Shown here in pieces: positions 380 through 14,065 of a DNA stretch of 64,000 nucleotides. A program made the position numbers and the translations under genes. Under the pieces are notes generated by a model. The model had not been told where the DNA came from. It was given only the letters and a program-made list of their open reading frames with translations, and ran no database searches. Source of the DNA: Chloroflexota bacterium (GTDB lineage Bacteria; Chloroflexota; Dehalococcoidia; Bin125); contig JAPPJZ010000037.1 in assembly GCA_028874365.1 (NCBI GenBank), positions 1-64,000 of the forward strand, in the 5' to 3' direction. How positions within the stretch are numbered: the first letter of the stretch is position 1; every line of letters starts with the position of its first letter.

Positions 380-1104
380 CTAGAGGGTCGCTAACGGTCC
401 CAGCTCGCGAAGCCGCTCTCGGCGCCTCCGATAGTCCGGAATCGCCTTGGCTACGACATCCCAGTACTCAGTGTTGTGGCCGCGGACCTTGAGATGGGCG
501 AGTTCATGCGCAACCAGGTAGTCAATCAGCGCTGGAGTAGCCATGATCACGCGCCAGTTGAAGCGCAACGTTCCGTCAGGGGCGCAGCTGGCCCAGCGCT
601 TGCGTTGATCTCGGATGAGAATCTCCTTCGCCCGAACACCAAGCAAGCCTGCTATCCGGTCGACCCTATCGGGGAGTTTCAACGCTGCACGTTCTCGATA
701 CCATCGCTCGAATGCCGCCCGCGTAGCCTCGCAGCGCTCGTCTCCAGTGAGCGAGTTCGGAACCTCCACGTCAAACTGCCAGTGGTGGAACCGAATCTCG
801 ACTGCTTCCCTGTCGGTGGTGCGAACCGTGAGCCGAACCGATCTACCAAGGTACGGAAGCGACTCTCCACTAACGAAGCGGCGGCGAGGCGGGGCGTGCT
901 CAGTTGTGCCGTTGTGACGCATGATCCACTTGGCCCGCTTGCGGACCGTGGTTTCGATGTGTTCGCTAGTGGTCTCGATTGGCGCCGCCACGGTTACGAC
1001 GCCTGGCGAATCGACCGTGATTTCCACCGTCTTCTTCCGCCTCGGTCTGCGAATAATCTGGTATTGGATCGCGGAATCTCCGAAGTGAACGACGCCTTGT
1101 TCGG

Positions 1105-1108
<4 letters not shown>
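380..1108 (-). CDS. YgjP/DUF45 (WLM/SprT-like) zinc metallopeptidase, type I R-M associated
   Basis: VAHELAHLKVRGHN (HExxH) plus RKRWASCAPDGTLRFNWRVI motif; 4-bp overlap with hsdR stop. Confidence 0.85.
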
Positions 1109-4226
<3,118 letters not shown>

Positions 4227-4230
<4 letters not shown>

Positions 4231-5467: not shown

Positions 5468-6350
5468 TCATCTGCAGTAGCTTTCCGGATCCAACAAGGC
5501 CAGCTCGTAGTTGGTGAGCGTTTCGACTGCGAAGAAGGTCTCGCCGTGAATCTCAAGCCTGAGTTCGGCGGGATCACCGAAGGCCAAATCACGGTCTGCT
5601 GCCCTCTCCGTAATCGCATCCCATTTTTCGAGGATCTTCTCCTCCTCACTCTGCGCCCACTGCTTTAGGCAATCCGCGTGAAGCACATCGAGGGTGTTGC
5701 TTCCGGCTGCAGTGACGCCTCCCCCAGGCGGAAGATAGACGGTGTCATCTGTCATTGTCACTGCATGATTCACCCTGTTTTTCCTGAGATTCTTGACTTG
5801 GCCGTCTGTCAAGGTGTCCCCACTCAAGGCACGCCCCTTCCAGTGAGATATAGATTCAGGCCAGTTGTCATGAACAATCTGTAGTAGGTCTTGGTGCGTC
5901 CAGACACCATGGGAGTAGATGCCGATCAGAAAGGCATTCTCCGAATCGAATCGACAGTAGATGAGAGGACCTGTTCTGTCAGCGAATCCGTCGTCGCCTA
6001 TATCTAGTCCAAGGTGCAGGTGGTAGATTCCCCAGTGATTCAACAGTTCATCGTTGATATTGCCCGGATCTTTGTTTAGCTTGCTTCGGTGTGGGTTGAT
6101 GTCTTCGCCTCTCTCGATCTTCTGCTCAATGACGGATAGCGCATCCTCGTGTTCTTTCGGACATGAGAACACACTCGAGCGCTGGACACTCCTAGGAATA
6201 GGCTCAATCGAGTTCCGATTGGCATTCAAGAAGAGCCACACTACCTTCTCGTCCTCATACCCAGCAATGTGGTGGCCACGCGCTGCGAGGTCGAGTCGGC
6301 ACAACTCGGCGAAGTCGTGCCAGAGGTTGATGACAACCTGTGGGGACATG
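5468..6350 (-). CDS. Hypothetical protein within R-M cluster (start trimmed to MSPQVVINLW; ORF track extends to 6619 into hsdS)
   Basis: About 294 aa starting MSPQVVINLWHDFAELCRLDLAARGHHIAGYE; no family recognised. Confidence 0.6.
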
Positions 6351-6354
6351 GCGT

Positions 6355-7635
6355 TCACTCTTTCTGTTGTGTGGCGTTCAGTTGTCCGCTGAGCAGAGCG
6401 TCGGCGGTTGACGACTTCATTAGCTCCAATGCACTGAGTCTGTCTCGTTCGCTCTCGATGGCGGATTCTGCGCTGTCGAGTGCATCTGCGATGGCCTCCT
6501 GTTCCCTCATTGATGGAAGTGGAATGGGGTACATCAGATAGCCCTCGTAGTCGAGGTTGCGTATGCCGGTTGTGCGCTGCTCCAGGCGCTCCGTCACTCC
6601 CCGCATGTACCGATGCCATAGTGCACGGGCTGCGAATCTAGCGCTGCATCTGGTCGCGTCAAGGCGCAAGTGCTGGCAGAAGTTGCTGCAGTAGATGGGA
6701 GCTGACTCCTCGATAAGCGCGATGCGGCCAACCGGCGCGGCAGGGCCGCCGCCGCTTCGCTCCAGAATGAGATCGCCATCCTGCATAAGGCGTCGTTCTC
6801 GGTCTTTGTCACCGAGCCGACGCCACGCAGCCTTTTCGGTGTGTACTCTGCCGTCCCGTGTGAGGTCCGCAGCGCGGAGCACTCGAACTCCAGGATCATC
6901 GTCTGTCGGCTCATCTCCCCAAGCACCAGGCTGATTGAGCGTTGGCACATCCCCCAGGCGCACGACGTCCCAGGAGGCGGGGATGGTTCCGAGGCCTCGG
7001 ACTTCTTTCCACTCGGTGTGGCGACCGGGGAGGCCTCGGGTGAGGAGGTCGTGGAGCAGGGCGTCGCGCAGACGCTCGGTGGCGGCGATGACTTCCTCGG
7101 TCCGCTCAATCGCCTCGTCGATGGAGTCGAGCACCGCCGCAATCGCCTGCTGCTCGGCGATCGGAGGAAGGAGAACAGGGAGAGCGCTGTACTCGGCCGC
7201 ATTTATGTTCGGCTGAGCGCCGACGTGGAGTACAGACTGGAGCCAACGCAGATACGTCGGCGAGTGCGTGTAGATGTCCAAGAAACGCGGCAACGCGACT
7301 GCCGCGTCGGGACGGAAGCGGATGAGATAGCCGGCGTAGACGCATCGCCCATCGCTCGGTCGATAGAGATAGGTTCTGCCGACACTCCCACTGCGAGCAA
7401 AGAGCAGATCTCCCTCTCGAAGCTCGTGTCCTCGGACTATCTCTGGATCCGCAGAGCGAACCTCGTCCGTCCTCAGGCGACCATTGTCAGTAATGTCGGT
7501 GATTCGAACATAGCGCGGCTGCGCTGGATCGTAGTTGAGAGCTGGGGCATTTGCTCCATATCGCGGTGCATCGCAGATATCCCCCAGCCGAACGCGGCGC
7601 CATCCCTCCGGGATTTCGGGCTTTGAAGGCATCAA
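6355..7635 (-). CDS. hsdS: Type I restriction-modification specificity subunit HsdS
   Basis: 426 aa; two TRD halves (PEGWRRVRLGDIC; PASWDVVRLGDV) each followed by conserved coiled coil (LPPIAEQQAIAAVLDSIDEAIERTEEVI; LPSMREQEAIADALDSAESAIESERDRL). Confidence 0.95.
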   Translation of the reverse strand: MMPSKPEIPEGWRRVRLGDICDAPRYGANAPALNYDPAQPRYVRITDITDNGRLRTDEVRSADPEIVRGHELREGDLLFARSGSVGRTYLYRPSDGRCVYAGYLIRFRPDAAVALPRFLDIYTHSPTYLRWLQSVLHVGAQPNINAAEYSALPVLLPPIAEQQAIAAVLDSIDEAIERTEEVIAATERLRDALLHDLLTRGLPGRHTEWKEVRGLGTIPASWDVVRLGDVPTLNQPGAWGDEPTDDDPGVRVLRAADLTRDGRVHTEKAAWRRLGDKDRERRLMQDGDLILERSGGGPAAPVGRIALIEESAPIYCSNFCQHLRLDATRCSARFAARALWHRYMRGVTERLEQRTTGIRNLDYEGYLMYPIPLPSMREQEAIADALDSAESAIESERDRLSALELMKSSTADALLSGQLNATQQKE

Positions 7636-8003
7636 TCGCCACGCTCCCGACGCTCATGCTCGCGCAGTGCGTCGAGCGTCAGCGGGCGACCCTCTCGCTT
7701 GGCTTCGAGCCAGCGCTGTAAAGATCGCTGGCTCTCGCCCGACGGTCGGCCTGCGAGCAGTCCCTCAACGCTGAGGTCTTCGTCGAGGTCGGGCCAGTGG
7801 ATGCCCACTCCTTCGCCGAGCAACTCCCAGTGATTTCGTTCCTCGGCGGTGCCGTGAGCAAGGCGTGGGTACCAGAGCAGTGGAACAGAGATGCTTCGGC
7901 CATCGGCGAGGTCCATGGTCAAGGAGTCCTCAGTCACAGACACATCGGTCGCTCGAGAGGTCTGAAGTTCAGTCACAGAGATGGTCAAGTGACTTCCCGT
8001 CAA
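7632..8003 (-). CDS. DUF2442 domain protein
   Basis: SLTMDLADGRSISVPLLWYPRLAHGTAEERNHWELLGEGVGIHWPDLDEDLSVEGLLAG is the DUF2442 consensus. Confidence 0.85.
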   Translation of the reverse strand: MTGSHLTISVTELQTSRATDVSVTEDSLTMDLADGRSISVPLLWYPRLAHGTAEERNHWELLGEGVGIHWPDLDEDLSVEGLLAGRPSGESQRSLQRWLEAKREGRPLTLDALREHERRERGD

Positions 8004-8320
8004 CTCGCTCGCGCCGTCTGGCGGACGGCGATGTCGACATCCAGCAGACGGAACGTGGTTGAGATCGTGGGCACCGGATCGCCGTACTCGGCGAGCGCGT
8101 TGCTGTGGAAGGCGATGGCCTCTTCAATAGACAGCTTTGGCTCCGGTAGCGGGTCTCCGTCTTTGAGCATGGACTCGATGTGCAGGCCAAGCGCCTCACA
8201 CATCATCGACTCAATCGCGTCCAGGCTGTCGGCGGTAGTTACGCAGCCGGGTACGTCGGGGGCGTAGGCGGCATAGTTGTTGGGCGTCTGTTCGACGACG
8301 ATCGCGTAGGTCAAGTTCAT
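8000..8320 (-). CDS. hicB: HicB-family antitoxin
   Basis: YAIVVEQTPNNYAAYAPDVPGCVTTADSLDAIESMMCEALGLHIESMLKDGDPLPEP. Confidence 0.88.
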   Translation of the reverse strand: MNLTYAIVVEQTPNNYAAYAPDVPGCVTTADSLDAIESMMCEALGLHIESMLKDGDPLPEPKLSIEEAIAFHSNALAEYGDPVPTISTTFRLLDVDIAVRQTARAS

Positions 8321-8517
8321 CGATCTCTCCCCCGAATCCCTGCTTGTCTCAGAATACTCAGCCAGGTACCGGTCGGCAGGTCGTCGCGCGGGTGGCCGGG
8401 GATGGTCACCTTGCCGCGTTTGACCGGATGGCGGAAATGGCGGTGACTGCCGCGCGTGGCAACATGACGCCAGCCATCGCGTTCGACAATGCGAATCGCC
8501 TCCCTAACTTTTGGCAT
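8317..8517 (-). CDS. hicA: HicA-family mRNA interferase toxin (66 aa; start trimmed from the 211-aa ORF)
   Basis: MPKVREAIRIVERDGWRHVATRGSHRHFRHPVKRGKVTIPGHPRDDLPTGTWLSILRQAGI; GSHRHF active-site motif. Confidence 0.9.
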   Translation of the reverse strand: MPKVREAIRIVERDGWRHVATRGSHRHFRHPVKRGKVTIPGHPRDDLPTGTWLSILRQAGIRGRDR

Positions 8518-10039
8518 AGCCAAGCTCCGCGAGCAGCTCGTCCATCCGCGCGGCCGCTTCGTCGCGCCGGCGCTCCGCCTCCCGAAGCTGGGCCAGCGCC
8601 TCCTCGACGCTGAGCACCTCGATCGGCTCGGTCGTGTCGACGTAGCGGCTGATGTTGAGGTTGAAGTCGTTCTCTTCGATCTCGTCGAGGTCGGCGATGT
8701 GAGCGAATCGGTCGACCTCCTCGTAGGCCTCGAAGGCGTCAACGATCCTCTTGGCGTGCTCGGGATCGAGATGGTTCTGAGCCTTGCCGGAGCGATAGTA
8801 GTCGTCCTGGTCGGCGTCGATAAAGAGGATCTTGCCGCGCCGCTCGGACGGCTTGCGCTTGTTGAGGATGCAGATCGCGACCGGGATGCTGGCACCGTAG
8901 AAGAGGTTGGGCGCGAGCCCGATGATCGCCTCGAACAGGTCGGCCTCGACAATGCCCCGGCGAATCTTGCCCTCCGCCCCGCCGCGGAAGAGAATCCCGT
9001 GCGGCATCACAACGCCGACCATGCCCTCAGCGTTGGTCGTGGCCAGCATGTGCTGGAGGAAGGCGAGGTCGCCCCTGGTTTTGGGCGGAATCGCGCCGTA
9101 TCGGTCGAAGCGGTGATGCGGGTCGTTGGGCGCGAAATCGTGGCCCCATTCCTTGAGACTGAAGGGCGGATTGGCGATCACGCGGTTGTAAGAGAGCAAG
9201 CGGCCGCGGTCGTCGAGCAGGAGCGGGTCGGCAATCGTGTCGCCGCCCTCGATCCGCGCCGAGCGCAGGCCATGCAGCAGCAGGTTCAGCTTGCCAATCG
9301 CGAGCGTCCCGAGGTTGCGTTCCTGTCCGTGCAGAACGAGGTTGCGGACGTCGCCACCCTGCCGCTCTACGTGCTGGGCCGCGTAGATGAGCATGCCGGC
9401 AGAACCGGCGGTGGGATCGCAGATGCGCATACCTTCGGTCGGTCGCAGAAGCTCGACAATCAGTTGGACAACCGAGCGGGGCGTGTAGAACTCGCCGCCC
9501 TTCTTGCCCGCGTCGTCGGCGAACTCGCGGATCAGATACTCGTAGGCGTTGCCCAGCACATTGACCGCTCCGCCGCCGTCCGCAGGTGTCAGATTGTCGT
9601 CCGTCAGGTCGAGTTCGCCGAAGTGCTGTAACAGCCGTCCAATGATCCGATCGCGGTTCTGGGGACCGCCGAGCTTCGATTCGTCGTTCCAGTTGGTGTT
9701 GCGCAGAATGTTGTCGAGCTTGGGGGTGTTGGCCTCCTCGATCGCGGCGCTGGCCACGTTGAGGACCTCGCCGAGGTTCATCGCGTTCTTGACGACTTCT
9801 GGCCAACGCGCGTCGGGCGGAACGAAGAACTCGTGCTCGTCGAAGTCTGTTTCGGCTACCTCTCGCGGCACGTTGTCGGCAACGGCTCGCTCGACCTCCT
9901 CGCCGAAGCGGTCGGAGAGCCGCTTGAGGAAAAGCATCGAGAAGATGTAGTTCTTGTAGTCAGAGGAATCGATCTGGCCGCGCAAGATGTCGGCGGCGCC
10001 CCAGAGTTTCGACTCCAGTTCGGATGTCGCAAGCGGCAT
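8504..10039 (-). CDS. hsdM: Type I restriction-modification DNA methyltransferase HsdM
   Basis: 511 aa; GGEFYTPRSVVQLIVELL, DPTAGSAGML, VIANPPFSLKEWG. Confidence 0.97.
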   Translation of the reverse strand: MPLATSELESKLWGAADILRGQIDSSDYKNYIFSMLFLKRLSDRFGEEVERAVADNVPREVAETDFDEHEFFVPPDARWPEVVKNAMNLGEVLNVASAAIEEANTPKLDNILRNTNWNDESKLGGPQNRDRIIGRLLQHFGELDLTDDNLTPADGGGAVNVLGNAYEYLIREFADDAGKKGGEFYTPRSVVQLIVELLRPTEGMRICDPTAGSAGMLIYAAQHVERQGGDVRNLVLHGQERNLGTLAIGKLNLLLHGLRSARIEGGDTIADPLLLDDRGRLLSYNRVIANPPFSLKEWGHDFAPNDPHHRFDRYGAIPPKTRGDLAFLQHMLATTNAEGMVGVVMPHGILFRGGAEGKIRRGIVEADLFEAIIGLAPNLFYGASIPVAICILNKRKPSERRGKILFIDADQDDYYRSGKAQNHLDPEHAKRIVDAFEAYEEVDRFAHIADLDEIEENDFNLNISRYVDTTEPIEVLSVEEALAQLREAERRRDEAAARMDELLAELGYAKS

Positions 10040-10111: not shown

Positions 10112-11644
10112 CTAAAGCCGTCCGATGCGATTGAATGGCGGCTCGTCCGGTAGAGGTCGATACACTTCAACGATTTCATCAGGCAGCTCAAAGCGGCTAG
10201 TCAGAACGTCGATCACTGATTGCACAATGAGGGAGGAAAGCGCAAGTACGGCTGACGGCGGTGCGTTGTTGACCGGGGCAGAGCAGCCAACTTCAGGGGT
10301 AGCGAAGTCAACCGCATCGTCGCCCGGAGGAATCAGCGGGTAGCGGTCGGAAACCGATCGCCGCCCTAGCGGTGTGTCGTCAACGTGCGCCTGTCGCCGC
10401 ACTCGGCCAAGGAATCCGCCACGATATAGCGCGCCGGTTACGAGCGGCCTTCCCTCTTGCTGTGAAACAATCGCGACACTGGCCGTAAACGCCCCATCAC
10501 CTGTTGCGTCGACAACGATGTCCGCATGTTCAATCCGCGTTCGAATCTCGGCGGGTGTCCTGGGCCACTCGAGGAATGTGTTGGTCTTCGTCCACTTGGC
10601 ATGATGACCGACCATTGCCGCGACCGCAGCCACTTTCTGGTGCCCTACTGCCCAATGCCCGGCGACGTGACGCACGATGTTTCCGGGCGTGAGGATGTCA
10701 GCGTCAACGATGTCAAGAACACCCAAACCGCTCTCGGCGAGCGTGAGGGCCACAAACCCGCCCAGTGCGCCAGCCCCGAAGATCACGGCCCTGCGCCCAC
10801 TGAGTGTTGGCGCATCGGGACCCGCCCTCAGCATGAGCGTGTTCTCATCGCTCGGACCCAAGAGAAGCGCCTTGGCTTGTATGCCCTCTCCTATTCCCTC
10901 GAGCGCCAACACAAGTAGGTCAGGTCGCCCGCCTCGCGCCCAACAGAGCATCACGAGATCGATGCCGCCACTGGTGACCAGCGCATCGGGCTTGCGCCGC
11001 TTCGCAATCTGGGCCTCTAGATGTCGACGTTGTCCCCGATTGAGATGCTCCAGAACCTCTGAGAGCCGGCGTGGCGGAGGACTCTCTAGCTCGCCGAGCT
11101 GAAACCAGAGTCCGCGTAACTGTTCTGATCGCGCCACGCCGGGATCGAGCGCGACGGGAGTCCCGGCGGTAGCAACGACACCGTGGAAATCGCCCCAACT
11201 GCCCTGGGAGACACCGATGTTCGCAAGATCGAATGTTGCCAATACCGAGGATTTGTCCTGGAAGTTGAGCAGGGCGTCGCGGCCGAGATCGTCGTCCTGC
11301 CAGCCCTGTTTCGCCTGTCGACACCACTCTTCGATCCGCGCGAACAGTCCGCGGAGCGTGATCCAACGGAGGCTGTCGTCGCCATCCCGCCACATGCAGA
11401 CGAGCCCGCCTAAGGTCGAATGGTTCGTTGCGAGACCTTGAACAAACACAGCCGGCGGCTGATAGGGCCATCCGGGCGCAATGCCGATCTCCATGGTTGT
11501 GGCGTCGGTTAGAGCCTCGAAGGCTGAATGAATCGGACCTCGCCATAGCTGACGGTCTGAACCTGGCACGGGTTCAAAGCCCGAGTCCACCAGTTCCGTC
11601 GCGAAAGACTCGAGGGAAGCAACGTCGAAACAGTCGTCGAACAC
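10112..11644 (-). CDS. E2-E1 fusion protein (ThiF/E1-like adenylyltransferase with N-terminal E2-like domain), Cap2-like CBASS ancillary protein
   Basis: E2-like segment with candidate catalytic Cys in GGLVCMWRDGDDSLRWITLRGLFARIEEWCRQA; E1 motif AVIFGAGALGGFVALTLAESGLGVLDIVDAD and Cys loop EVGCSAPVNNAPPSAV; GTG start; 6-bp gap to CD-NTase gene. Confidence 0.85.
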   Translation of the reverse strand: MFDDCFDVASLESFATELVDSGFEPVPGSDRQLWRGPIHSAFEALTDATTMEIGIAPGWPYQPPAVFVQGLATNHSTLGGLVCMWRDGDDSLRWITLRGLFARIEEWCRQAKQGWQDDDLGRDALLNFQDKSSVLATFDLANIGVSQGSWGDFHGVVATAGTPVALDPGVARSEQLRGLWFQLGELESPPPRRLSEVLEHLNRGQRRHLEAQIAKRRKPDALVTSGGIDLVMLCWARGGRPDLLVLALEGIGEGIQAKALLLGPSDENTLMLRAGPDAPTLSGRRAVIFGAGALGGFVALTLAESGLGVLDIVDADILTPGNIVRHVAGHWAVGHQKVAAVAAMVGHHAKWTKTNTFLEWPRTPAEIRTRIEHADIVVDATGDGAFTASVAIVSQQEGRPLVTGALYRGGFLGRVRRQAHVDDTPLGRRSVSDRYPLIPPGDDAVDFATPEVGCSAPVNNAPPSAVLALSSLIVQSVIDVLTSRFELPDEIVEVYRPLPDEPPFNRIGRL

Positions 11645-11650
11645 GGTGGC

Positions 11651-12685
11651 TTACCCGAATCCCTGCGCTTCTTGAGGCCTCCGAGTAGGGGTGGCGGGGT
11701 GGATCGGGTCTCCTGACGGCCCGCACCCAGGCGGGAGCGGAAACACATTCGGCGTTCGCTCGTTGCTGCCAAGGATCTGTCGCCAGTTGGTTGCAGCTCG
11801 GCAGATGTTGGACTGGGGCCGATTCGCGTTGTCGGCGAGATCCGCGAGTCTGCGGAACTGGTCGGCTGCATGCAACAGGGAGACCGCGTCGACGGCCGGA
11901 TCGACAGGCGTCCCGAGTGCCGGATCGACGATTGGTTCGTTCGGAGCGACGGCGAGCCGTTCTGCGACGCGTCGGAGGGTCTGGGCGAACAGCGTCTCCC
12001 ATTCGCTCCCATTGACGGATCCTCTCGTCCAGGCTTCGTAGGTAGCGAACTCGATCAGCAATCCACCCGGACGTCGGTCTCCCAGATGCACGCGCCGTGT
12101 CTGACGCATCAGTTTGACGACCGGTACGTAGGCGTTGCGGCCGCCGACCGTGGGGCTGGACCGAGAAGTATTGAGCTCGCTGGAAAGCTTGCTAAAGTGC
12201 TCGGGATCGGTCGTCACCCATTGTCCCGATTCGCCGGACCAAAGGTCGCGATCCCTAATCGGGATCGCCCATCGCTGGCGGTCCCGCACAGCGGGGACCG
12301 CGTCCACTGCGAATGGAGTCCAGATCGGATCGGACCCTGGCTCATGCGGGAAGTCGATCTTGATACTTCGATCTTGCGGCCTGGCGCGTGAGCCGTACTT
12401 GGTGCCCAAGACCTGCCATACCGCGTCGAAGACATCCTTCGGCGAGGCTGTTGTGTCGAGGTTCGTGAGCTTGACGAACACATCGACATCCTTGCCCGGG
12501 TATATGCCGGTCTGGCGTGCATAGGAGCCGATCAGCTTGGTATCGACCCCCCAAGACAGAAGCAGCGGGTCCTCCTCTAGCACACCACGAACCTCGGTGT
12601 GCGCCTCGGCCGCACGCTTCGCCTTCTGACCGTTGATCTGAATGTTGCTCAGTGCTTCCTCGAACTGCGGGCGCAGAGTGGTCAT
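11651..12685 (-). CDS. CBASS CD-NTase (cGAS/DncV-like nucleotidyltransferase)
   Basis: 344 aa; LIGSYARQTGIYPGKDVDVFVKL (GS...DxD) and SIKIDF third acidic residue; C-terminus ...QEAQGFG. Confidence 0.9.
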   Translation of the reverse strand: MTTLRPQFEEALSNIQINGQKAKRAAEAHTEVRGVLEEDPLLLSWGVDTKLIGSYARQTGIYPGKDVDVFVKLTNLDTTASPKDVFDAVWQVLGTKYGSRARPQDRSIKIDFPHEPGSDPIWTPFAVDAVPAVRDRQRWAIPIRDRDLWSGESGQWVTTDPEHFSKLSSELNTSRSSPTVGGRNAYVPVVKLMRQTRRVHLGDRRPGGLLIEFATYEAWTRGSVNGSEWETLFAQTLRRVAERLAVAPNEPIVDPALGTPVDPAVDAVSLLHAADQFRRLADLADNANRPQSNICRAATNWRQILGSNERTPNVFPLPPGCGPSGDPIHPATPTRRPQEAQGFG

Positions 12686-12706
12686 GAAGTTCCTCCTGCC
12701 AAATGA

Positions 12707-14065
12707 CTACTTCGTCGGATGAGCAGGAAGCAACACCTGCTCAATCGCGCTACCTCCGGTGCCTGAGCGGACCGCGAGACTGGGTAGATATCTGGGTTCG
12801 GTGGCATTGCCTTCGTCGTCCGGTCCATCCTCCCACTCGTAGAGTTGGATACGCAGTGTGTTGAGCGTGCGGCCCACCAATAGCGCGATGGCCCATGGGC
12901 ATCGCAGCAGCAGGTGGACCTCGCGAGTTCTGTGCGTGGCAGCTAGTGTGCGAATGATCTGCGAGACCTCCCCGGCGAGCGTCCCTGCCTCGCCGGGGTT
13001 CAGGTTTCCTTGGCGGCTGGGGCGAATCTGATAGGCGGCAGCGAAACTGTTGCCGTTGCGGCTGAGTAAGGCCTGAGCGGCTGAACTGCTTGGAGCAGGC
13101 AGGAGGTCGAGATACACCAAGACCGGGCCTGTCCCCGCTGTCGCAGACGAGATAGAATCGACGCCCAGTAAGCGCGGTGGTGCTTCCGGAACGGGCGCGT
13201 TGCCGCTGAGCGTCCAACTCTGTCCCGCGGTGTCGATCACGTCCACTGCACCGATGGCGGTGGTCGGCAACGAGGCGCCCAGTGCGTAGGCGACGGATAG
13301 GTGCGCACCGCCCAAGAATCGAGCGCTTCTTGCTCCACTGAGCGCGAGCAGATTAGGGAGCGCCTCGAGGGAGAGCGCGAGGTCTTCAAGTGCCAAGCGA
13401 TTGGGCCTGCGCTCGTTGGCTAGCGGCGGGCGCAACCGGAGGACCAGGTCGGCATCGATGGGCGCGGACGCGGGGGCGAATCGCGTCTGCACGTCGATCG
13501 TGATGATCCCGCCTGCGGCCCGTATGTCGCCGCTGATCGCGCGAGTCCGGCGCTCGCACTGTTCACGCGCCGCGGCGGCTCGGTCTTGTGCCGTCCGTAC
13601 CGACTGCTGCTTGAGGCGCTTTAGCGTTCCCTCGGGCTGAGCGAGCAGTCGGTCCGGCGCGTCATAGTCGAGCTTGCCAGGTTCGCGCTCAAGCGCAGAG
13701 AGCAGTGAGAAGGTGAATGCCGGGTTGCGCTCCAGTTCGAGCAGAAGCGGAAGCTCAACCGCTTGAACGGCGTGCGATGACTCAATCTCTGGCGTCACAA
13801 GTAGCGCAGCGCCGGACAGTCCTGAGTGCAGCGCTTGTTCTAGACGGTGTTCGGTGTCGCCAGGAAGCAGATCAGACTTGTCATGCCAGACCGGTACCCC
13901 AACTGCTCTCAGCGACCAAGCAATTTCATTGGCCAGCCGCGTACCATCACTCTGCCGGTACGAAATGAAAACCGGCCCACGCGGGTCAACCCCCGCTGCT
14001 CGCGGGTCAGCACGCCTGTGTTGACCTGCGCTCTGATGAATCAATGGACGTCCACTTGAGGCCAT
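12707..14065 (-). CDS. TIR-SAVED CBASS effector
   Basis: N-terminal TIR (PVFISYRQSDGTRLANEIAWSLRAVGVPVWHDKSDLLPGDTEHRLEQAL); C-terminal SAVED-like segment (REVHLLLRCPWAIALLVGRTLNTLRIQLYEWED); located directly upstream of CD-NTase. Confidence 0.85.
   Translation of the reverse strand: MASSGRPLIHQSAGQHRRADPRAAGVDPRGPVFISYRQSDGTRLANEIAWSLRAVGVPVWHDKSDLLPGDTEHRLEQALHSGLSGAALLVTPEIESSHAVQAVELPLLLELERNPAFTFSLLSALEREPGKLDYDAPDRLLAQPEGTLKRLKQQSVRTAQDRAAAAREQCERRTRAISGDIRAAGGIITIDVQTRFAPASAPIDADLVLRLRPPLANERRPNRLALEDLALSLEALPNLLALSGARSARFLGGAHLSVAYALGASLPTTAIGAVDVIDTAGQSWTLSGNAPVPEAPPRLLGVDSISSATAGTGPVLVYLDLLPAPSSSAAQALLSRNGNSFAAAYQIRPSRQGNLNPGEAGTLAGEVSQIIRTLAATHRTREVHLLLRCPWAIALLVGRTLNTLRIQLYEWEDGPDDEGNATEPRYLPSLAVRSGTGGSAIEQVLLPAHPTK

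Follow-up and report, generated by a model that had tools for sequence, protein, structure and literature searches.

A candidate toxin-antitoxin slot between hsdM and hsdS in a lineage of type I restriction operons

Why does a type I restriction operon carry a complete toxin-antitoxin pair between its methylase and specificity genes? The question arises from a 64,000-nucleotide stretch of DNA from a Chloroflexota bacterium, the whole of which is called the window here, where a sequence-only reading had described a HicAB module and a DUF2442 gene nested between hsdM and hsdS by start/stop overlaps. We have examined the operon itself, the same junction in related loci, the turnover of the embedded genes, and the roles that these may have.

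The window operon and its embedded genes

The operon and its neighbours lie on the minus strand in the order CBASS genes, hsdM, hicA, hicB, DUF2442, hsdS, a PD-T4-7-like gene, two ORFs, hsdR and a YgjP-like peptidase.

14065-12707, minus strand: TIR-SAVED effector of CBASS (PADLOC and Pfam)
12685-11651, minus strand: cyclase of CBASS (PADLOC and Pfam)
11644-10112, minus strand: E1-E2 of CBASS (PADLOC and Pfam)
8504..10039, minus strand: hsdM, type I modification subunit (N6_Mtase PF02384, 8e-97; PF12161)
8317..8517, minus strand: hicA toxin, 66 aa (PF07927, 1.5e-21)
8000..8320, minus strand: hicB antitoxin, 106 aa (PF15919, 1.5e-11, over the first 63 of 123 model positions)
7632..7988 (start at 8003 less likely), minus strand: DUF2442, predicted orphan DhiA-type antitoxin (PF10387, 7e-23)
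6355..7632 (ATG 7632; TTG 7635 possible), minus strand: hsdS, specificity subunit (Methylase_S PF01420, 2.6e-21)
5468..6352, minus strand: PD-T4-7-like defence gene, between hsdS and hsdR (PADLOC PD-T4-7, 2e-32)
5249-4707 and 4532-4227, minus strand: two ORFs with no Pfam match
1105..4230, minus strand: hsdR, restriction subunit (HSDR_N, SWI2_SNF2)
380..1108, minus strand: YgjP-like metallopeptidase at the operon end (PF01863, 8e-55)

The common strand and type I order of hsdM, hsdS and hsdR predict a type I restriction-modification operon. The CBASS genes (10112-14065) end 72 nt before hsdM and may form one operon with the restriction genes. The same CBASS-hsdM order was seen in the related locus L008. 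The hsdS-hsdR gap of related loci is a second cargo slot (L008 12693-13268; L010 6055-6360; L012 14094-14480; L013 13341-14726; L016 12302-13308), with genes of the Hypoth_Ymh/PD-Lambda-3_B-like, HepT-like, PDC-S58 and TIR (ThsB-like) types.

A complete and apparently intact HicAB module does sit between hsdM and hsdS, and two of the four overlaps are as first described. The hsdM stop overlaps the hicA start by 14 nt (8517-8504), with the last hsdM codons (Leu-Gly-Tyr-Ala) supplying the hicA start codon, and hicA and hicB share the 4 nt ATGA (8320-8317). The other two depend on the start codon chosen. A 4-nt overlap of hicB and DUF2442 requires TTG 8003 as the DUF2442 start, whereas TTG 7988 appears the better start, since it is preceded by GGAAG and lines up with the ATG in the related locus L007; this leaves an 11-nt spacer after hicB. 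Similarly, DUF2442 overlaps hsdS by 4 nt if hsdS starts at TTG 7635 but by 1 nt (TGATG) if it starts at ATG 7632. Short gene overlaps are ordinary in operons, and the feature above chance is the recurrence of the arrangement, not the overlaps themselves.

Both members of the HicAB pair look functional, as their frames are intact and the catalytic Gly and His are retained. Residues G23 and H25 of the window HicA align with Gly22 and His24 of HicA from B. pseudomallei (Burkholderia), where mutation of these residues abolishes toxicity (the matched PDB chain is the HicA(H24A) form), and both are invariant in nine aligned copies from this junction. The window HicB is the toxin-binding domain alone, with no DNA-binding domain by Pfam, length or AlphaFold model (mean pLDDT 82). 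This partial RNase H-like domain is recognised by PF15919 and Foldseek, and the best Foldseek matches of the model are the N-terminal domain of HicB in PDB 6g1c and 4p78. The missing DNA-binding domain does not disqualify the pair as HicAB, since HicB is fused to such a domain only in some cases (PMC2701414). We also considered a loss of the domain specific to this junction and rejected it: the free-standing HicB relatives are equally short and likewise lack the domain, which makes the short form a subfamily trait and no adaptation to the slot. The module thus resembles known type II HicAB in its toxin-first order, catalytic residues and HicB N-terminal fold, and differs from a typical HicAB in its short HicB, in lying inside an hsd operon and in starting within hsdM codons.

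The hsdM-hsdS junction in related loci

The broad survey covered 52 HsdM loci from 84,980 species genomes, and loci from further genome searches were added. Because its queries were window HsdM peptides, it may overlook hicAB that accompanies HsdMs of other families. The lineage set holds 23 distinct loci from Chloroflexota and Acidimicrobiia with at least 70% identity to the window HsdM, and their junctions fall into the following states.

HicAB, 9 of 23: window, L009, L010, L012, L013, L014, L015, L119, L120
hicB only, 1 of 23: L121, in which hicB follows a scar left by the hicA start
DUF4160-DUF2442, 6 of 23: L007, L008, L093, L094, L095 (DUF4160 frame broken by an in-frame stop), L096
DUF2442 alone or as a remnant, 2 of 23: L097, L115
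Empty, 5 of 23: L011, L016, L098, L114, L127

The arrangement is therefore not unique to the window, and a toxin-antitoxin module or its remains occupy the junction in 18 of the 23 loci. The nine HicAB loci all start hicA at the same place: its ATG is contained in the GGN-TATGC codons that encode the conserved C-terminus of HsdM, and hicA runs past the hsdM stop in a different reading frame. Across 908 kb around the 52 HsdM loci, every match to hicA (8), hicB (12 ORFs, broken ones included), dhiT (2) and dhiA (2) lies within the hsdM-hsdS junction. One row of the DhiA model behind these counts, L094, was misframed; searches with single sequences give the same two DhiA loci. Chance or an assembly artefact was rejected, as the same junction recurs in metagenome-assembled genomes of several independent studies.

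The DUF2442 gene of the window is explained by the second family at this junction. DUF4160-DUF2442 is a proven toxin-antitoxin family, DhiTA: work on Dickeya established DhiT as toxin and DhiA as antitoxin (PMC8198452), and in the Thermus module (PEM) the second gene, DUF2442, neutralises the first while the pair stabilises plasmids (PMC12724237). The first reading had remarked that DUF2442 normally stands beside DUF4160, and the same two-gene module is indeed found at the same slot in six related loci. The window DUF2442 is 85% identical to the copy in L007 and 73% identical to that in L008, both of which follow DUF4160. An adjoining DUF4160 is present in these two loci and in L093, L094 and L096, and absent in the window. 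The DNA of the window is homologous to that of L007 and L008 up to the 3' end of hsdM and again from within DUF2442 onwards, so that HicAB occupies the DhiT position of the closest relatives. Since the window genome (96% complete) has no DUF4160, and its sole DUF2442 is at this locus, the window is predicted to carry an orphan DhiA antitoxin and no DhiTA system. HicAB has thus displaced the DhiT toxin and stranded its antitoxin, DUF2442. With HicAB and DhiTA at one junction, the slot holds two unrelated toxin-antitoxin families, both toxin-first. Beyond what was first described, HicAB is then, on the comparison of these loci, one of several interchangeable toxin-antitoxin cassettes, and DUF2442 the antitoxin of a displaced one.

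Losses in the slot are asymmetric. An intact antitoxin stands without a working cognate toxin in six loci (the window DhiA, L012, L014, L095, L097 and L121) and antitoxin remnants without toxin in L015 and L115, while no toxin without antitoxin was found among the 23 lineage loci. Loss of the toxin before the antitoxin fits active toxins. However, the toxin gene adjoins hsdM, and recombination there would take it out before the antitoxin gene whether or not the toxin is active. Such orphan antitoxins and toxin scars, which are common in the slot, are also what could be expected if the window module were a decaying, inactive relic. We find this hardly credible given its intact frames, its catalytic residues, and the pairwise dN/dS among slot copies of about 0.1-0.4 for hicA and hicB (mostly 0.1-0.35), which points to purifying selection on both genes.

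In distant HsdM families the same junction carries single larger genes of other families, namely RhuM, RhuM-Fic or Fic (L018, L019, L021, L036, L037 and L054). Including L023, genes for RhuM (with or without Fic), Fic or Schlafen-AlbA follow hsdM, mostly between hsdM and hsdS. A plasmid origin of the arrangement was rejected: with a fused HsdM-HicA-HicB query, none of the best 30 of 3515 plasmid records has it, and the sole record among these 30 that is covered over more than 80% is a RhuM locus. The viral contigs gave two remote HsdM matches only. In the open-access literature that we searched, which took in hicAB with hsdM and hsdS, toxin-antitoxin genes embedded in type I loci, and RhuM and Fic, we found no account of this slot. 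The parts are each of a known kind; what is new, as far as this literature goes, is an exchangeable toxin-antitoxin slot with cassettes that carry an hsdM tail.

Turnover and movement of the cassettes

Both phylogenies suggest frequent change in the slot. On the HsdM tree, all junction states together need 13 changes, at least as many as when the labels are shuffled, and the HicAB state needs 6, of which 5 are forced by well-supported branches. The slot HicAs are scattered among free-standing HicAs with 6 changes, 3 of them forced, on a tree of few columns and modest resolution. At this same resolution the Acidimicrobiia slot copies cluster, and those of L013 and L014 pair with free-standing modules. 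A single clade of all slot HicAs is not supported, as the Acidimicrobiia copies alone group.

A case of exchange is given by L009 and L015. Their hsdM genes are 95% identical with a dS of 0.154, and their hsdR regions have about 93% nucleotide identity. The dS is 1.04 for hicA and 1.50 for hicB, i.e., at silent sites hicAB is about 7-fold more diverged than hsdM, which indicates that the hicAB alleles were exchanged. Alleles are thus swapped by recombination, and the flanking hsdM and hsdR are left in place. The hsdS target domains of the two loci stand in different order (L009 12631-13404, L015 12687-13948), which suggests domain shuffling. Collectively, these comparisons make it well supported that the junction is a dedicated toxin-antitoxin slot fed by recombination.

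Two loci suggest how cassettes may travel. In L010 (2620-4600), three different hicAB copies stand in tandem with a period of about 655 nt, and copies 2 and 3 each lie behind a 76-nt relic from the end of hsdM (local score 96, the other loci scoring 19-25). Copy 3 is closest to the L009 allele, and the hicB genes of copies 1 and 2 have an identical 3' end. In L061 (reverse complement, 501-1124), hicAB lies outside any hsd locus, beside an unrelated gene, and is preceded by HsdM residues 481-509 only; its HicA is sister to the slot clade. No hsdM tail was seen ahead of ordinary free-standing hicAB, where the matches begin at hicA. The relics indicate that a cassette can move with a copied hsdM 3' end. 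A more speculative reading, which we put forward tentatively and think rather unlikely, would make the pairs self-targeting cassettes that need no recombinase. With the hsdM 3' end as homology arm, a cassette would recombine into the hsdM end, rebuild the last codons and capture the hsdM mRNA. Incompatible hicAB alleles would then act as a lock, tying hsdM to the local hsdS and punishing replacement of the specificity gene.

The same observations bear on whether restriction gains anything from the slot. Mobile HicAB and DhiTA modules could be selfish passengers that settle at the hsdM end, where recombination is frequent and harmless and the operon transcribes them. The HicAB subfamily is widespread in the class (191 of 393 genomes) and lies away from hsd in 27 of the best 30 loci, empty slots exist, the L061 cassette lives outside hsd, and the hsdM tail could serve as a landing arm. 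Two unrelated toxin-antitoxin families nevertheless converge on one junction, with no copy elsewhere in the surveyed neighbourhoods, and both hicA and hicB of the slot appear to be under purifying selection. We therefore regard mere hitchhiking as possible, though on the unlikely side.

Possible roles of the embedded pairs

We favour a slot for toxin-first toxin-antitoxin cassettes at the hsdM-hsdS junction, with retention as the most likely benefit, and give this reading a probability of about 0.5. The first reading had proposed an addiction or a tripwire for the module. As function, addiction or allele retention seems the likeliest, ahead of hitchhiking and then of a phage tripwire; the slot pairs probably hinder loss or replacement of the restriction genes. 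A simple scan of the window, which is weak for this phylum, gave no sigma-70-like site at the hsdM-hsdS junction and called no terminator on the coding strand from hsdM to hsdS. Under retention, hicAB would have no promoter of its own and would be read from the hsd mRNA, with expression through translational coupling. As HicB has no DNA-binding domain, the pair would also be unable to repress itself. When the operon is lost, or hsdM-hsdS is overwritten by a recombinant, HicB production would end, the labile HicB would decay, and HicA would cleave mRNA in the cells that lost the local allele.

Several observations count against retention. The slot is empty in 5 of the 23 loci, so the module is dispensable, and L061 retains hicAB without hsd, so a moved module does not prevent hsd loss. 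The short HicB is shared with free-standing modules, and the loss of the toxin first can follow from its position. Addiction was also tested and not found for tvrAT of a pneumococcal type I locus, the closest published precedent (PMC6265443), a warning that a toxin-antitoxin pair can sit in a type I locus without being addictive.

In the pneumococcal tvr locus (SpnIV), which is also of type I, the phd-doc homologues tvrAT are placed between hsdM and hsdR. Unlike the window junction, this locus has repeats, several hsdS segments and a tyrosine recombinase, and tvrAT mainly restrains recombination there. The window junction holds hicA, hicB and DUF2442 only, with one hsdS and no recombinase or repeats, and so is not a phase-variable locus of the tvr type. 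By this precedent, in which TvrAT acts on the tvr recombinase, the module could tune how hsdS is expressed or shuffled; it lies directly upstream of hsdS, and L009 and L015 differ in the order of their hsdS target domains. We consider such regulation very unlikely, given that the junction has no recombinase gene, that the window has one hsdS only, and that its HicB is without DNA-binding domain.

An RNA-cleaving toxin gene is likewise embedded in the hsd operon of EcoprrI (type IC), which provides a guard precedent in a type I locus (PMC12707154). By analogy, phage anti-restriction or host shut-off might lower HicB and free HicA, giving growth arrest when restriction fails, and the neighbouring cargo (CBASS, PD-T4-7-like, HEPN and TIR genes) is abortive-infection-like. 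However, PrrC is an anticodon nuclease that is held by the restriction enzyme and released when EcoPrrI is inhibited, whereas the toxin embedded in the window, HicA, is an mRNA interferase that comes with a dedicated antitoxin, which makes direct sensing of the enzyme unnecessary. A tripwire is thus improbable in our view.

When toxin-antitoxin genes adjoin a restriction system, they are usually written off as chance companions within a defence island. The loci described here form a natural series at one position of one operon lineage, with either toxin family, half-lost, in tandem or empty. This series makes it testable whether embedded toxin-antitoxin modules stabilise or guard their host operon or merely ride in it, and provides evidence from evolution that the roles of HicAB and DUF4160-DUF2442 are interchangeable.
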